Assembly: GCF_001307315.1 (NCBI RefSeq) | Contig: NZ_LGUC01000001.1 | Coordinates: 434,001 to 498,000, forward strand | DNA from: Halolamina pelagica | Lineage (GTDB): Archaea; Halobacteriota; Halobacteria; Halobacteriales; Haloferacaceae | Direction of reading: 5' to 3' | Length of the DNA: 64,000 nucleotides | Part shown: positions 31,762-47,293 of the stretch, one piece after another | How positions within the stretch are numbered: position 1 is the first letter of the stretch | Layout: every line of letters starts with the position of its first letter | Translations under genes and position numbers: made by a program | Notes under the pieces: generated by a model | What the model was told of the DNA's origin: nothing | The model's database searches: none | Seen by the model: only the letters and a program-made list of their open reading frames with translations

Positions 31762-33361
31762 ATGACTGAGGATACACCCACACCGAAGACCGACGGGGGC
31801 ACCGACAGCGTAGCAAGCGACGACGTCGCCCTCGACCCGTGGGGATCCTCGACCATCGAGGACTACCGCAAACTGTTCGAGCAGTTCGGTATCGAGGAGT
31901 TCGACGCCGACGAAGTCCCCGACCCACACTACCTGATGCGCCGTGGCGCCATCTTCGGCCACCGCGAGTACGAGCGCGTCGCCGAGGCGATGGCGAACGA
32001 CGAGCCGTTCGCGGCGCTTTCGGGGTTCATGCCGACGGGCGACCCCCACATCGGCCACAAGATGGTGTTCGACGAGCTCATCTGGCACCAGCAGCAGGGC
32101 GGCGAGGTGTACGGCCTGATCGCCGACCTCGAAGCCCACTCCGCCCGGGGATGTCCTGGGACGAGATCGACGAGCACGCCCGGAGCTACCTGCTCTCCTT
32201 CATCGCGCTGGGGTTCGACGTGGAGGACGGCGAGCTCTACCGCCAGTCGGACAACCGCGTCCTGCAGGATCTCGCCTTCGAGATCGGCTCGACGACGAAC
32301 TTCTCGGAGTTCGAGGCGATCTACGGCTTCGGCGGCGAGACCAACGTCAGCCACATGCAGTCGGTGGTCACCCAGCTGGCGGACATCCTCTACCCCCAGC
32401 TCGACGAGCCGATGCCGACGGTGATCCCGGTCGGGCCGGATCAGGACCCGCACGTCCGGTTCGCCCGCGACGCCGCCGCCCGGATGCGCTACTTCAAGGT
32501 GACCGAGGCGTTCGCCTCCTTCGAACTCGACGACGCGGAGCGCGACCTGTTCCGGGCGCTGTACGACGAGCTGACCGAGCCCGACGACGTGGACACCGAC
32601 GATCTGCGGTGTGAGGACGCCGCCGAGCAGCTCCTGGCGTTCGTCAACGATTCCTCGACGGCCGTCGACGCCGATCCGTCGACCCGCGACTCGCTGGTCG
32701 AGAAGCTCGAGAACGGCGGCAAGGAGCCGATCCGCCCCCGCGTGCGCTTCCTCGACCGCAACGCCAACGAGGCGGCGTTCGACGCGTTGATAGAAGCGAT
32801 CCCGGGCGAGAAGCGCCGCTACGACGCCCACATCGACAGCTTCGACCTCGACCCTGCGGAAGCCGAGGAGATCGCCCGCGAGATCGAGATCGACCACGAC
32901 GGCTACGGCTTCCAGGCGCCGTCGTCGATCTACCACCGCTTCATGACCGGGCTCACCGGGGGAAGATGTCCTCCTCCATCCCGGCGTCGCACATCTCCCT
33001 GCTCGACGACCCCGAGGACGGCTACGACAAGGTGAAGTCCGCGGCCACTGGCGGACGTGCGACCGCCGAGAAGCAGCGAGAACTCGGCGGGGAGCCCGAC
33101 GAGTGCCCGGTGTACGAGCTGTACGCCTACCTGCTCGCCGAGGGCGACGACGAGTTCGCGGCCCGGGTGTACGAGGAGTGCGCCGAGGGTGAGCGACTCT
33201 GTGGCGGCTGCAAGGAGCAGGCCGCGGAGCTGATGCGGGAGTTCCTCGCAGAGCACCAGGAGAAACGCGAGGAGGCGAAGGAGGTCCTCGCGGACGTGGA
33301 CATCGACCTCTCGAGTGAGCGGCGCGGCCTCGGCGGGAAGGAAGAGGAAGACGCGGTGTAG
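31762..33361 (+). CDS. trpS: Tryptophanyl-tRNA synthetase, two apparent frameshifts
   Basis: The class I synthetase charges tRNA(Trp). The HIGH motif is in GFMPTGDPHIGHKMVF, the body has PVGPDQDPHVRFARDAAARM, and the KMSKS loop reads GLTGGKMSSSIPASHISLLD once the frame is repaired. Breaks lie at the G runs 32147-32150 and 32958-32962, each repaired by one G, giving about 533 residues. The second break falls inside the catalytic KMSSS loop. Because the enzyme is essential and both breaks are run contractions, sequencing error is much more likely than a pseudogene. It is probably co-transcribed with endA. Confidence 0.94.
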
Positions 33362-33373
33362 GCAGACGGCGCA

Positions 33374-33390
33374 TCGCGGCAGTGCCGCGA
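33374..33390 (+). terminator. Hairpin after trpS
   Basis: A perfect 7-bp stem TCGCGGC / GCCGCGA with a 3-nt loop lies 12 nt after the trpS stop. No T run follows at once. A TTTTT at 33451-33455 may serve as T-rich terminator, as the TATA-like box of the next unit, or as both. Confidence 0.4.
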
Positions 33391-33479
33391 CGGCGCTCGG
33401 GCGCCTCGACCGACTGCCGCCCTGCGTTCGCTCGCCCCGTTCGCGGAAGCTTTTTGCGAGAGCGGGGGAATCACGACGT

Positions 33480-33554
33480 ATGGCGCCCGACACCGCCACC
33501 CGCACGAATCGCCTCGCAGCCGCCGGTCGCGGGGTCGGGTTCTTTTTCGCCTGA
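33480..33554 (+). CDS. Putative phenylalanine leader peptide (24 aa) upstream of pheST
   Basis: This 24-codon frame begins MAPDTATRTN and ends GRGVGFFFA-stop. Three consecutive Phe codons (TTC TTT TTC, 33540-33548) stand just before Ala and the stop. One is TTT, rare in this G+C-rich genome. A TTTTT box at 33451-33455 is centred 27 nt before the ATG, the spacing for a leaderless transcript starting at this codon. The pheS start is 115 nt downstream and the gap folds into strong hairpins. The layout resembles the bacterial pheM leader peptide in front of pheST. That the peptide is made and senses charged tRNA(Phe) is inference. Confidence 0.55.
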   Translation: MAPDTATRTNRLAAAGRGVGFFFA

Positions 33555-33555
33555 G

Positions 33556-33640
33556 TCGGTCGGCGGAGCCCGGGAGCGGTGCGGACCGGGCGAAACCGAC
33601 CGAGCGGGCAGCACCGCCCCGGAGCGACGACGCCGGGGCG
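33556..33640 (+). promoter_or_regulatory. Candidate attenuator RNA structure between Phe leader peptide and pheS
   Basis: Hairpin 1 has an outer stem TCGGTCGG (33556-33563) / CCGACCGA (33596-33603) and an inner stem GCCCGG (33568-33573) / CCGGGC (33586-33591). A symmetric internal loop CGGA/GAAA, able to form tandem G-A pairs, separates them. Hairpin 2 pairs 33615-33622 with 33633-33640 (8 bp, CGCCCCGG/CCGGGGCG). The hairpin 1 loop, GCGGTGC at 33576-33582, is fully complementary to GCACCGC at 33611-33617, which overlaps the 5' arm of hairpin 2. The two states exclude each other. No U run follows, so control could act on translation or on factor-dependent termination. Confidence 0.5.
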
Positions 33641-33669
33641 ACCGATCAGCGACACACACCACTCACCAC

Positions 33670-35174
33670 ATGCGACTTCCGGAACGACAGGTCGCGGCCC
33701 TGGAGGCCGCGAGCGCGACCGACGCACAGCCGATCCCCGACCTCGCCGCCGAGGCGGGGATCGACGAGGCGGCAGCCACGACTGCCGTCTTCGAACTGGA
33801 GGAGGAGGGGCTCGTCACCGTCGAGAGCGAGACCGAGGAGACGGTCTCGCTCACCGACGAAGCCCGCGACTATCTCGACGAGGGGCTGCCCGAGGTCCGG
33901 CTCTACCGGGGCGCCGTCGAGGCCGGCGCCGACGAGACGCCGGTCCAGATGGGGCAAGTCATCGGCGCCTCGGGTCTGGCGGGCCCACAGGTCGACATCG
34001 CGCTGTCGAACTTCGCTCGCAAGGGGTACGGCGAGATCGACAGCGGCGAACTCGCCGCCGACCCCACCGCCGACCCCAACTCGGACCCGGAGGCTGCGGC
34101 GCTCGAAGCGCTCGACGCCGGCGAGGCCGTCGACGACGAGTCGCTGCTCGACCGCCTCGCAGAGCGCGGCCTGATCGAGCGCGAGGAGCACACCGTCCGA
34201 TCGGTGCTGCTGGCCGACGCCGGCGTCGACGCGCTGATGGCCGGCGTCGAGGCCGCCGAGACCGCCGACCGACTCACTCCCGAGATGCTGACCTCGGGGA
34301 GTGGGAGGACGTGGAGTTCACCGACTACAACGTCGAGGCCGACGCGACCGAGGCCGGCTCGGGGAAGGTCCACGTGCTCCGGCAGGCCGCCGAGCGCGTG
34401 AAGGACGTGCTCGTCGGGATGGGGTTCCAGGAGATGGACGGCCCCCACGCCGACGCGGACTTCTGGATCAACGACGCGCTGTTCATGCCCCAGGACCACC
34501 CTGCGCGCACCCACTGGGACCGCTTCGCGCTGGACGTGGACCCGATCGAGGAGCTGCCGGAGGAGCTCCTCCAGGCCGTCGAGAACGCCCACCGCGAGGG
34601 TGTGGGCCCGGACGGCGACGGCTACCACTCGCCGTGGAGCGAGGAGTTCGCCCGGGAGGTCGCGCTGCGCGGGCATACGACCTCGCTGTCGATGCGGTAT
34701 CTCTCCGGGGCCGCCGAGGGCGATCTCGAGCCGCCACAGCGGTACTTCTCCGTGGAGAAGGCGTACCGGAACGACACCATCGACTCGACGCACCTGCTCG
34801 AGTTCTTCCAGATCGAGGGTTGGGTGATGGCCGAGGAGCTCTCGGTGCGTGATCTGATGGGCACCTTCGAGGAGTTCTACGCCCAGTTCGGCATCACCGA
34901 CGTGCAGTTCAAACCCCACTACAACCCCTACACCGAGCCCAGCTTCGAGCTGTTCGGCCGCCATCCCGAGACGGACGAACTGATCGAGATCGGCAACAGC
35001 GGGATCTTCCGCGAGGAGGTGCTCTCGCCGCTGGGCGTCGAGTGTGACGTGATGGCCTGGGGGCTCGCGCTGGAGCGGCTGGCGATGCTGTACACCGGCG
35101 CCGAAGACATCCGCGACCTGCACGGCACGCTCGCGGATCTGGAGTTCCTGCGGAACGCGGAGGTGATCTACTGA
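33670..35174 (+). CDS. pheS: Phenylalanyl-tRNA synthetase alpha subunit, one apparent frameshift
   Basis: The class II catalytic subunit starts MRLPERQVAALEAASATDAQ, with N-terminal winged-helix domains to about residue 210. The catalytic domain has WINDALFMPQDHPARTHWD, SMRYLSG, motif 2-like YFSVEKAYRNDTIDSTHLLEF, and motif 3 MAWGLALERLAMLYTG. The frame breaks at the G run 34296-34299. One extra G joins PEMLTSG to EWEDVEFTDYNVEA for about 501 residues. There is no Shine-Dalgarno sequence before the ATG despite a long leader, so translation may depend on the upstream peptide. Its stop overlaps the pheT start (TGATG). Confidence 0.95.
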
Positions 35175-36987
35175 TGCCCGTCGTCGATATCGACACTGAC
35201 GAACTGCGCCGGCTGACCGGCCACGAGGAGAAGGACGACGACCAACTGAAGCAGGACCTGTTCGGCCTCGGGCTGGAGTTCGAGGGCGAGACCGAGGACG
35301 GCGATCTGCAGTTCGAGTTCGCCCCCGACCGCCTCGACCGGCTCTCCGTCGAGGGCGTCGCCCGCTCGCTGCGCTACCAGTACGGCGACGACCGGGGGTG
35401 GACGTCCCGAGCATCAACGACGCCGAGTGGACGATCACGGTCGACGAGTCCGTCCCGGCCGAGCGCCCGTACGTCGCGGGCGCGGTCGTTCGCGGGGTGG
35501 ATCTGGACGAGGACGCGCTGGACTCGCTGATCCAACTACAGGAGAAGCTCCACGCGACGATGGGTCGCAAGCGCGCGAAGGGCGCCATCGGCATCCACGA
35601 CCTCGCGATGCTGAAAGGCGAGCGCATCGAGCAGCGCGAGGTCGGCGTGGAGAACGAACTCGAACCGCCGGAGGATCTCACCCCCGTCGGCGGCGACGCG
35701 GGGCCGACCGACGTGGGCGGCCCGACGATCACCTACCGCGGCATCGATCCGGAGGGCGACGAGTTCGTGCCGCTCGACGCCGATCGGGGGATGACGCCCG
35801 CCGAGGTGCTGACCGACCACCCGACCGGCGAGGAGTACGCCGACATCGTCAGCGAGTACGAGCGTTACCCCGCCATCTACGACGAACTGGGGTTGTTCTC
35901 GTTCCCGCCGGTGATCAACGGCCAGCGGACCGAGGTAACGACGGAGTCCCGCGAGCTACTCGTCGAACTCACCGGCACCGACCAGTGGACGATCGACCGG
36001 ATGCTGGCGATCATCTGCTACGCGCTCGACGCCCGCGGGGCGACGATCGAGGCGGTTGACGTGGTGTACGACGAGGACGCCGCCGGCGAGCGTGCGGGCG
36101 ATCACCTCGTCCGCCCCGAACTCGACGTTCGGAAGAAGACGGTCTCCCACGAGCAGATCGAGACCACGCTCGGCGTCGAGTTGGAGATGGAGACGGTCGT
36201 CGACCTGTTCGAGCGCTCCGGGCTGGACGTGACGACGAACCTGGGCGAGCGGACCGAGTACGAGGTGGCGATCCCGCCGTACCGCGTCGACGTGCTCCAC
36301 CCGGCCGACCTCGTCGACGACGTGGGGCGGGCGTACGGCTTCGACGATCTCAAGCCCAAATACCCCGACATCGGCACTATCGGCGGCCGCCACGAGCGGA
36401 GCCGGCTGGAGCGTGCCACCCGGACCGCGCTCGTCGGCCTCGGCTTCGAGGACCTACTGAACTTCCACCTCTCCTCGCCGGAAGAGAACTACGCGCGCAT
36501 GGGCGTCGAGGAGGGCAGCGACCACCTCGGCGGCGGCGAGTCGGTGGACGTCACCAGCGCCTACAGCGAGGACTACACCCAACTCCGGACGTGGGCGCTG
36601 CCGTCGATCATGCACGTCCTGGAGAACAACACCCACCGGCGCTACCCCCAGGAGCTCGCCGAGGTGGGCTTCGTCGCAGCGCAGGACGATGAGGAGAACA
36701 CCCACGTCGCGGAGCACCGCACGGTCGCGGCCGCCATCGCGCGCACCGACGCGACGTACGAGGACATCAAGGGCAAACTGCAGGCGCTCGTGAGCGAGTT
36801 CGACGCGAGCCTGGAGACGCCCGCCACCGAGCACCCGAGCTTCATCGACGGCCGCGCCGCCGAGGTCGTGATCGACGGCGACAGCGTGGGCGTCATCGGC
36901 GAACTCCACCCGAAACTGCTGGTCGAACGCGATCTGGAGGTGCCGGTCGCGGCGTTCGAGTTCCGGCTCGACGCGCTGGCGAACTGA
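35174..36987 (+). CDS. pheT: Phenylalanyl-tRNA synthetase beta subunit, one apparent frameshift
   Basis: This is the archaeal PheT (about 604 residues when repaired), partner of PheS in the heterotetramer. B3/B4 editing-domain parts include HATMGRKRAKGAIGIHDL and PPVINGQRTEVTTESRELLV. B5 is near DVRKKTVSHEQIETTLGVEL, and the catalytic-like core has IPPYRVDVLHPADLVDDVGRAYG and EVGFVAAQDDEENTHVAEHR. The frame breaks at the G run 35394-35398. One extra G joins YQYGDDRG to VDVPSINDAEWTITV. It is translationally coupled to pheS by the overlapping stop/start. Confidence 0.94.
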
Positions 36988-42158: not shown

Positions 42159-43630
<1,472 letters not shown>

Positions 43631-43701
43631 ACAGACCGGGATCTGCCTTCGGGCAGACCCACCTTTCACGTTCGGTGCCACCGGTTCGACCGGGCACCTT
43701 A

Positions 43702-43716
43702 GAACTACCAAGGCTC
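43702..43716 (+). other. 16S rRNA processing stem, 3' arm
   Basis: This arm pairs with 42031-42045 over 15 bp. It ends five bases before tRNA(Ala), so 16S and tRNA processing sites are close together. Confidence 0.85.
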
Positions 43717-43720
43717 CATA

Positions 43721-43792
43721 GGGCTCGTAGCTCAGTGGGAGAGTGCCTCCTTTGCAAGGAGGATGCCCGGGGTTCGAATCCCCGCGAGTCCA
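43721..43792 (+). tRNA. tRNA-Ala (TGC)
   Basis: The 72-nt tRNA has acceptor GGGCTCG/CGAGTCC with one G-T pair, an anticodon arm CCTCC-TTTGCAA-GGAGG with anticodon TGC at 43753-43755, a TTCGAAT T-loop, and discriminator A. It lies in the 16S-23S spacer, the usual place in euryarchaea. CCA is not encoded. Confidence 0.97.
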
Positions 43793-43810
43793 TGTCGGAT
43801 AGAAGGAAAC

Positions 43811-43824
43811 CGGACGGCTTATAC
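43811..43824 (+). promoter_or_regulatory. Candidate internal promoter in the 16S-23S spacer
   Basis: CGGACGGCTTATAC resembles the upstream rRNA promoters (GACG, three bases, T-rich TATA-like box). A spacer promoter has been described in Halobacterium. Apart from tRNA(Ala), this element and the 23S processing arm, the spacer 43793-44010 shows no gene. Confidence 0.4.
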
Positions 43825-43942
43825 GCCCGACGGAAGTACGATGGAATCCAGACCGACCGATGCACCAGACCGCGAGAGCGCGTCTGGGAAGGGTCCGATG
43901 TACGCTCCCGTGACACCCACGGGACGTGCAATGACGACCGTG

Positions 43943-43958
43943 TGTAAGCGTAGTCCAG
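43943..43958 (+). other. 23S rRNA processing stem, 5' arm
   Basis: TGTAAGCGTAGTCCAG pairs perfectly over 16 bp with CTGGACTACGCTTACA at 46962-46977, bracketing the 23S gene. It is expected to form the bulge-helix-bulge substrate for pre-23S release. Confidence 0.85.
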
Positions 43959-44010
43959 GCACCCACTGGACCCGTTCAACGGGTTGCAGTGGAACGACGA
44001 TTACCGACAG

Positions 44011-46908
<2,898 letters not shown>

Positions 46909-46961
46909 ATTCATCCGGTAATCTCTCTGCACTGCACCCGTTTTACGGGTCCAGGTGCGAA

Positions 46962-46977
46962 CTGGACTACGCTTACA
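46962..46977 (+). other. 23S rRNA processing stem, 3' arm
   Basis: This arm is complementary over 16 bp to 43943-43958. Together they enclose the 23S gene. Confidence 0.85.
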
Positions 46978-46995
46978 TTACGGTCGTGGACCCGA

Positions 46996-47034
46996 CCGAG
47001 CTTGGTATGATCGCGGTTCGATTCCGCGACTCGG
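46996..47034 (+). other. tRNA-like element in front of 5S rRNA
   Basis: CCGAG (46996-47000) pairs with CTCGG (47030-47034). Between them is a perfect T-arm mimic: CGCGG, 7-nt loop TTCGATT, CCGCG (47012-47028). D and anticodon arms are absent, so it is not a tRNA. In Haloferax volcanii a tRNA-like structure at this place directs tRNase Z to form the 5S 5' end. The same role is inferred here, with cleavage about 47035-47037. Confidence 0.8.
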
Positions 47035-47036
47035 CG

Positions 47037-47157
47037 TGAGACGGCCAGAGTGGTGAGGTAACACCCGTACCCATCCCGAACACGGAAGTTAAGCTCACCT
47101 ACGTGTGAGCGAGTACTGGCGTGGGCGACCCGCTGGGAAAGTTGACTCGCCGTCTCT
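47037..47157 (+). rRNA. rrf: 5S ribosomal RNA (ends approximate)
   Basis: Terminal helix GAGACGGC / GCCGTCTC brackets the conserved 5S core CCCGTACCCATCCCGAACACGG-type sequence (47064-47085) and GTACTGG. The length of about 121 nt is typical. The ends were placed by the terminal helix. Confidence 0.95.
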
Positions 47158-47293
47158 TCCATTCATTGCGGTCATTTCGTGTCGGCGAGCGGGACGCTTC
47201 GCGTTCGTCCACACTCCATTCATCGACGTTTGAGCGACCGCGCTCGCAGTCGTTCGTCACTCCCGACGAGCGAAAGCGCCCGATACGGTACGC

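Follow-up and report, generated by a model that had tools for sequence, protein, structure and literature searches.

A short open reading frame ending in a run of phenylalanine codons stands within 500 nt upstream of pheS, the first gene of the synthetase operon pheST, in 108 of 154 distinct haloarchaeal loci. Judged from sequence comparison, it probably encodes a phenylalanine leader peptide, which would act in cis as a ribosome-mediated sensor of Phe-tRNA charging and thereby control pheST in haloarchaea. The frame lies in a 64,000-nucleotide stretch of Halolamina pelagica DNA (contig NZ_LGUC01000001.1, positions 434,001 to 498,000; hereafter the window), in which the conserved unit exceeds the peptide and extends from a promoter at 33444 through the end of a hairpin at 33603 (Table 1). 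The leader-peptide interpretation, already proposed in the initial annotation of the window, is supported by the conservation in these 108 loci, by a promoter in register with the frame, by a 26-residue uORF listed for Haloferax volcanii, by covarying hairpins termed P0 and P1, and by a fixed spacing; from these features we infer the regulatory response.

Table 1. Features of the pheST leader region in the window (positions counted from the first letter of the window)
Feature	Position	Strand	Remarks
trpS, neighbour upstream	31762-33361	+	Named by eye; several frames
BRE/TATA-type promoter CGGAAGCTTTTTG	33444-33456	+	Consensus of 108 leaders; start placed at or next to the leader ATG
Leader peptide ORF, MAPDTATRTNRLAAAGRGVGFFFA then stop	33480-33554	+	24 codons, ending GFFFA-stop; sequence and relatives
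P0 arm 1, CCGACACC	33487-33494	+	Codons 3-5; 7/8 paired with arm 2 in Halolamina
P0 arm 2, GGGGTCGG	33531-33538	+	Separated by one base from the Phe run
Three Phe codons, TTC TTT TTC	33540-33548	+	Coordinates from sequence
P1 hairpin	33556-33603	+	Outer stem 33556-33563/33596-33603, inner stem 33568-33573/33586-33591
P1 internal loop, CGGA/GAAA	33564-33567/33592-33595	+	Anchors conserved in relatives
GC-rich inverted repeat CCCCGG/CCGGGG before pheS	33617-33638	+	By eye, in Halolamina
pheS (PheRS alpha)	33670-35174	+	Frameshift between about 34290 and 34305; N-terminus agrees with relatives
pheT	35174-36987	+	Named from position and operon; two frames, split near 35400-35530

The initial annotation had described a 24-codon frame ending in Gly-Phe-Phe-Phe-Ala-stop with three adjacent Phe codons, one of them TTT, a TTTTT box centred 27 nt before its ATG, and a pheS gene 115 nt past its stop that lacks a Shine-Dalgarno match. 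These observations were borne out: the box occupies 33451-33455 inside the promoter CGGAAGCTTTTTG, and no obvious Shine-Dalgarno sequence was seen by eye before pheS. Frameshifts split trpS, pheS, and pheT within 31762-36987 of the window, whose assembly is estimated to be 79.93% complete, and the split frames are probably indel errors of the assembly. Given such frameshifts in the neighbouring genes, the leader itself might be thought a chance ORF or an assembly artefact, an explanation to which we assign a negligible probability. By pheS, the closest relatives of the window are Halolamina, and six other Halolamina species, in separate assemblies, share the frame and its ending as well as both hairpins, so that the leader is present in 7/7 Halolamina overall. 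These relatives, the leaders in 108/154 loci, and the pairing statistics of P0 described below rule out a chance or artefactual origin.

We gathered pheS loci from named genome contigs, keeping 80 of 312 confirmed loci, and from relatives, of which 97 of 99 gave a pheS match and 90 were taken in (G022, G035, G069, G073, G082, G093, and G098 were left out). Dropping 14 loci with identical last 200 nt and three without a usable start (L034, too near the contig end; L055, no start found; L178, poor start) left 154 distinct loci, each represented by up to 500 nt upstream of pheS. A leader was counted where the last ten residues of a short ORF included two or more Phe in the arrangement FF or FxF. 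By source, leaders were found in 56 of 78 loci from named contigs and 51 of 75 loci from relatives, in addition to the window. Among the named loci, the leader is present in Haloferax (6/6), Halolamina (3/3), Natronorubrum (4/4), Natronococcus (3/3), Halobaculum (2/2), and others, and absent in Haloquadratum (4/4), part of Halorubrum (11/28), and Natronomonas (3/4); a separate search found it in 15/15 Haloferax genomes. The absence of a conserved Phe-ending short frame in relatives had been named beforehand as a result that would refute the proposal. The predicted frame was found in the 108 loci and, at a greater distance, in one of the 46 loci counted as leaderless (L103), where the leader lies 676-757 nt before pheS, ends in GFFFGRV, and has a match to the P1 model alongside. 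The remaining 45 of the 154 loci have no detectable leader, which counts against the sensor reading and implies that the leader is dispensable.

The 108 leaders are 23-30 residues long, apart from one of 40, and frequently take the form M-x-(S/P)-E-(P/S)...G-F-G-F-F-F with variable central residues; the exact ending GFGFFF occurs in 45 of them. FFF is found in 67, most commonly encoded by TTC TTC TTC (27/67), and the last Phe stands 1-3 residues from the end in 104. In 102 of the 108 loci, the leader stop precedes the pheS ATG by 87-204 nt. TTT accounts for 39 of 198 leader Phe codons, compared with 38 of 921 in the pheS C-domain of the same loci (odds ratio 5.7).

That the Phe run is not due to chance, as the initial annotation had argued, was confirmed under a stricter criterion, namely an ATG ORF of 15-45 codons with at least three Phe in its last 10 residues. 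Such ORFs occur in 105/154 pheS upstream regions of up to 500 nt, against 1/770 mononucleotide shuffles of these regions and 0/90 of the 650-nt stretches before hisS, pheA (PDT), and trpE matches (0/30 each). A genome-block control yielded 15 ORFs in 2330 blocks, of which 12 were pheS leaders in pheS loci and 3 were background; an earlier block control, with pheS loci included among its blocks, had given 14/2810.

In Halorubrum and one Halobellus, we observed Phe runs decayed to different degrees (FGPFF, FEPFF, FGFVF) with the frame and mostly the P1 anchors kept (L020, L027, L048, L049, L022, L023, L058, L063, and L073). The decayed run in part of Halorubrum counts against the sensor reading. 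At two further loci, L157 and L160, the leader is only 35-37 nt from pheS and has no P1 anchors, and P0 arms are there by eye.

As for the promoter, the 108 leaders aligned on their ATG share an upstream consensus: position -37 is C in 81%, positions -34 and -33 are A in 91-92%, position -32 is C in 76%, and the four positions from -29 to -26 are T in 76-98% (98% for -28). Four or more consecutive T occur between -40 and -18 in 80/108 leaders, with the centre of the run at -29 to -26, as opposed to 147/2160 random positions. This BRE/TATA spacing is the usual haloarchaeal spacing for leaderless mRNA, and transcripts made from this promoter would begin at the leader's own ATG or right beside it. 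A sigma-70 promoter scan, which is ill-suited to archaea, found none at the locus.

A promoter-like sequence, P2 (CGGAACCGCTAACTGAC), is found closer to pheS with at least 12 of 17 matches in 120/154 loci, namely 83 of the 108 with a leader and 37 of the other 46; shuffling gives a mean score of about 9.5. It most often ends 26-27 nt before the pheS ATG, and in the window itself it was not seen by eye. P2 could bypass the leader, which counts against the sensor reading. Because P2 is retained where the leader is lost, we read it as a pheS-proximal promoter outside the sensor. The H. volcanii map of Babski et al. (2016; PMC4983044) marks no second start site at pheS, which speaks against P2 being active there.

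RNAalifold on four clades first revealed P0, a hairpin inside the ORF that pairs codons 3-5 with the codons preceding the Phe run. We defined arm 1 as ORF bases 8-15 and arm 2 as the eight bases ending one base before the last Phe triplet, permitting two offsets for arm 2 in the leaders and in the controls. At least seven of the eight pairs form in 97/108 leaders and all eight in 77/108. With synonymous recoding of the same peptides, at least seven pairs were reached in a mean of 37.7 leaders (maximum 49 in 200 trials), and with the arms swapped among loci in a mean of 78.4 (maximum 87 in 300 trials). Slide controls gave 3.8-5.1 of 8 pairs, the slide of -3 (7.1/8) being void since two offsets of one codon are permitted. 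Across the 44 different combinations of arms, two-sided changes were found at seven of the eight positions: the middle triplets are matched as GAA/TTC, GAC/GTC, GAG/CTC, or GGA/TCC, and the Phe of G-F-G turns into Val, Leu, or Ser jointly with its P0 partner. The window combines GAC with GTC and has one of its eight pairs mismatched. Such covariation despite residue changes indicates that RNA pairing is at least part of the reason why the N-terminal E-P and the G-F-G are conserved, and the Phe run following G-F-G is likely to be the sensor. An alternative fold between P0 arm 2 and the 3' arm of P1, sought by eye, was inconsistent among clades, and we do not propose it.

The second hairpin, P1, begins just past the stop codon and comprises an outer and an inner stem, between which YGGA faces GAAA or GAAC in an internal loop; a variable loop caps the inner stem. 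A pairing-based finder scored at least 9 in 63/108 leader loci, in 1/540 shuffles, and in 0/46 other loci, which include L103 with its leader beyond the stretch tested; scores of 5-8 were obtained for 12 leader loci and six others. The anchors YGGA and GAA(A/C), with pairing not required, are present in 96/108 leader loci and missing in 12/108. The outer positions are 68-100% paired compared with 41-99% for shuffled partners, the three innermost of them barely varying and thus being little informative. Inner positions 2-6 are paired in 85-93% compared with 44-77% after shuffling, and the inner position beside the loop is mostly non-standard (standard pair 26%) or G-Y. Two-sided changes occur at 13/13 pairs with a covariation score of 0.622 (n = 41; shuffling gives 0.194 and sliding no more than 0.197), a figure biased upward because the alignment consists of 41 of 56 sequences chosen for having stems; the anchor-only analysis serves as the check without pairing. 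In a search of 60 genomes, every one of the 22 matches to a P1 covariance model with E < 1e-3 was located upstream of pheS, which is partly by construction since the model was built from pheS-upstream sequences. Matches away from pheS in 20 stretches (L219-L238; E 0.004-0.65) were taken as chance, and no ATG ORF of 12-40 codons ends near these weak matches, save an unremarkable one in L238.

Single-sequence lowest-energy folds differ from P1 in several loci, which, like the missing anchors, counts against the sensor reading. RNAalifold produces P1 for Halolamina, Haloferax, and Natrialbales; the Halorubrum consensus prefers another fold, likewise a point against. There are also clade-specific extras, with the last codons and the stop paired in Haloferax and Halolamina and a small competing stop-codon hairpin in Natrialbales. 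No conserved competing partner for P0 or P1, forming a mutually exclusive terminator fold, emerged from RNAalifold on the four clades. A kink-turn consists of a 3-nt one-sided bulge followed by tandem G.A pairs. YGGA opposite GAA(A/C) permits tandem G.A pairs as in an L7Ae-type site, but the P1 loop is 4x4 and not one-sided; it is possibly a protein site or a tertiary motif of some kind. A known Rfam RNA was rejected, since Rfam 15 gave nothing above the gathering score at the leader or P1; at E up to 5, the only matches were a minus-strand piece of sR18 at 33644-33668 (16.1 bits versus 45) and a 9-base match at 33430.

P1 stands at a constant distance from the Phe codons. The first base of the last Phe codon lies 20.4 nt (sd 1.7, 96 loci) before the P1 core, and the stop codon 8.5 nt (sd 2.2) before it. 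The distances from Phe to stop and from stop to core are inversely correlated (Spearman -0.75), and the standard deviation of their sum is 1.72, whereas 5000 permutations gave 3.36 on average and never less than 2.76; as the loci are related by descent, the permutation p-value is not independent evidence, the constancy nevertheless being plain. Because the distance from Phe to P1 stays constant while the stop moves, P1 is positioned relative to the Phe codons and not to the stop. The outer stem starts 13.2 nt (sd 3.1) past the first base of the last Phe codon, approximately the leading edge of a ribosome with this codon in its A site when the bacterial footprint is applied. The two covarying hairpins and the fixed Phe-to-hairpin distance thus tie the Phe codons to RNA structure.

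Based on this geometry, we propose that scarcity of Phe-tRNA would make the ribosome wait on the leader Phe codons, where it would keep P0 open, with arm 2 within its footprint and the foot of P1 at its leading edge. With plentiful Phe-tRNA, the ribosome would proceed 3-9 nt onward to the stop codon, into P1, and then be released. The two ribosome states would lead to different RNA folds and different pheST expression, presumably higher under Phe shortage. Most likely, the outcome would be decided in the gap before pheS, where transcription would either end prematurely or read through. From the geometry, we prefer P1 as an antiterminator-like hairpin formed during the stall; with the other sign, P1 would be a terminating hairpin that is blocked directly.

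A U-tract was sought between leader and pheS, and T runs of at least four were found in 0/108 gaps; with no U-tract behind P1, a bacterial-type terminator is absent, a point against the sensor reading. From the leader end to pheS, such runs are confined to the Phe block, where they occur in 61/108 loci. This distribution favours the main mechanistic rival, a translation-coupled terminator without Phe sensing, composed of a hairpin ending in P0 arm 2 and the U-rich Phe codons. A ribosome at the leaderless ATG would cover arm 1 and keep P0 open, so that general initiation would be sensed and the Phe codons would be there for being U-rich. The sole match of a terminator scan here, a 6-pair stem at 33523-33538 followed by GTTCTTTTTC (0.1 expected), agrees with such a device; it overlaps P0 arm 2 and differs from P0. 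The TTT enrichment in the leader points the same way, and together with the T runs it is compatible both with slow decoding and with hairpin and Phe block acting as a terminator. Termination at hairpins is possible in this group, given that the H. volcanii hairpin S12, taken from a coding region (HVO_A0420), ended 59% of transcripts in vivo according to the results given for it by Berkemer et al. (2020; PMC7237163). Nevertheless, we hold a terminator of this kind to be quite improbable. In 47/108 Phe blocks there is no T run above three, and TTC TTC TTC is the commonest pattern, which argues that the amino acid is kept and not a U-tract; P1, its fixed distance from the Phe codons, and the Trp codons found before trpS2 (see below) would also be left unexplained.

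An effect after transcription is unlikely, though worth weighing: the position of the leader ribosome together with P1 might set mRNA cleavage, stability, or access to pheS in place of termination. The conserved internal loop of P1 with no U-tract behind it could indeed be a protein or nuclease site. Against it stand the 87-204 nt that separate the leader stop from the pheS ATG in 102/108 loci and the outcome of RNAalifold, in which no pairing with the pheS start was common to the four clades.

Published data on H. volcanii already contain a small ORF at this place. Among the 97 transcripts with 5'-UTRs of 150-250 nt analysed there by dRNA-seq, Table 2 of Babski et al. (2016; PMC4983044) lists a 26-residue ORF before pheS HVO_2948, with a pI of 5.9 and a mass of 2772. 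Length and pI match the leaders of 6/15 Haloferax genomes, the ATG of the 26-residue leaders being at -212, and the listed mass fits none of the 15 Haloferax leader peptides (nearest 2792), so that we only infer the identity of the published ORF with the Phe leader. The section of that paper on these uORFs gives no Phe run, hairpin, attenuation, or conservation for the pheS uORF and raises independent small genes as an alternative for such uORFs. Whether as a functional small protein or as a separate small gene lying before pheS by chance, this alternative appears very improbable for the Phe leader, where the residues in the P0 arms change in ways that preserve the pairing, the central residues are variable, and P1 accompanies the leader. 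A 2025 ribosome-profiling paper on H. volcanii (PMC12482152) makes no mention of uORF, leader peptide, tRNA synthetase, stalling, pause, or phenylalan.

A parallel case exists for tryptophan. Four of the 15 Haloferax genomes contain a second, higher-scoring trpS (trpS2), which appears to be of the bacterial type, and a 23-residue ORF with Trp-Arg-Trp precedes all four. Its length is that of entry 12 in Table 2 of Babski et al. (2016; PMC4983044), a 23-residue ORF before the tryptophan--tRNA ligase HVO_A0127, where the table marks no extra start at the gene. Of 12 further trpS2 loci from 40 genomes, nine have an ATG leader with WRW or WRWW, which brings the ATG form to 13/16 trpS2 loci examined; the leader of L330 is readable by eye from GTG (loci with a Trp leader: L189-L192, L320, L322-L329, and L330). 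With this parallel, cognate-codon sensing is the simplest common reading of the Phe and Trp leaders. In most trpS2 leaders, inspection by eye shows complementary sequences on either side of the Trp codons; these are typically GTCCGCTCCC and GGGAGCGGAC, with variants that match each other, and GCTCACTC(C/G) recurs downstream.

Searches at other genes, restricted to ATG starts, gave no sign that the device is general for hisS, pheA, the trp genes, or the other trpS; for hisS, pheA, and the trp biosynthetic genes, this counts against the sensor reading. Three nested His-containing ORFs at one of 30 hisS loci were not conserved, no Trp leader was found at 30 trpE loci, and 20 stretches upstream of trpE, each about 4.5 kb long, contained four isolated Trp-containing ORFs in three loci, again not conserved. 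The 30 pheA/PDT loci contained one unrelated ORF and no conserved leader, and the other trpS had no leader at 18 loci.

In bacteria, the leader peptide pheM carries Phe codons before pheST. The likeness to pheM suggested in the initial annotation holds insofar as a short ORF with a Phe run lies upstream of the same synthetase operon (108/154 loci), but the haloarchaeal leader is no copy of the pheM attenuator: it has an archaeal promoter, a leaderless start, two hairpins that are laid out differently, and no U-tract terminator before pheS (0/108 gaps). Nothing suggests common descent with the bacterial attenuator. Bacterial attenuators of the trp and pheM type have codons for the cognate amino acid and place them at a set distance from the RNA structure, and the haloarchaeal leader shares both traits. 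In the part of their study concerned with synthetase genes, Seliverstov et al. (2005; PMC1262725) name the gamma-proteobacterial pheST attenuator and predict by comparison candidate leader peptides with alternative hairpins for Streptomyces trpS (including a trpS2) and leuS. These cases resemble ours in that synthetase genes follow candidate leader peptides; as described in that part, they are bacterial and have terminators followed by poly-U, and the haloarchaeal WRW leader of trpS2 is their parallel rather than the element of the window.

For archaea, a statement in Blombach et al. (2021; PMC8448881) holds that no transcription attenuation or antitermination mechanism is known to date, and we found no archaeal Phe or Trp leader-peptide attenuator in the open-access literature. 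Bacteria are known to control synthetase genes through leader peptides; the archaeal form, the leaderless start, and the RNA parts are new within the searchable literature. We are inclined, with slightly better than even confidence, to regard the leaders as a haloarchaeal attenuation class of its own, in which leaderless leader peptides, codon runs, and RNA switches would control aminoacyl-tRNA synthetase genes, pheST by way of Phe codons and trpS2 by way of Trp codons. On this reading, the fold of P1, a new RNA motif, would depend on where the ribosome stops, and transcription attenuation would be seen for the first time in archaea. The leader is a concrete and widespread candidate in a genetically tractable group (Haloferax). 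If the proposal is true, transcription and translation are coupled closely enough in archaea for amino-acid control, leader-peptide control operates on leaderless mRNA made by a eukaryote-like polymerase, and a function is found for a small ORF left uninterpreted in a published table (the pheS uORF in Table 2 of PMC4983044).

In the window, an rRNA operon with the order 16S-tRNA-23S-5S lies downstream of pheST on the same strand, at 42159-47158.
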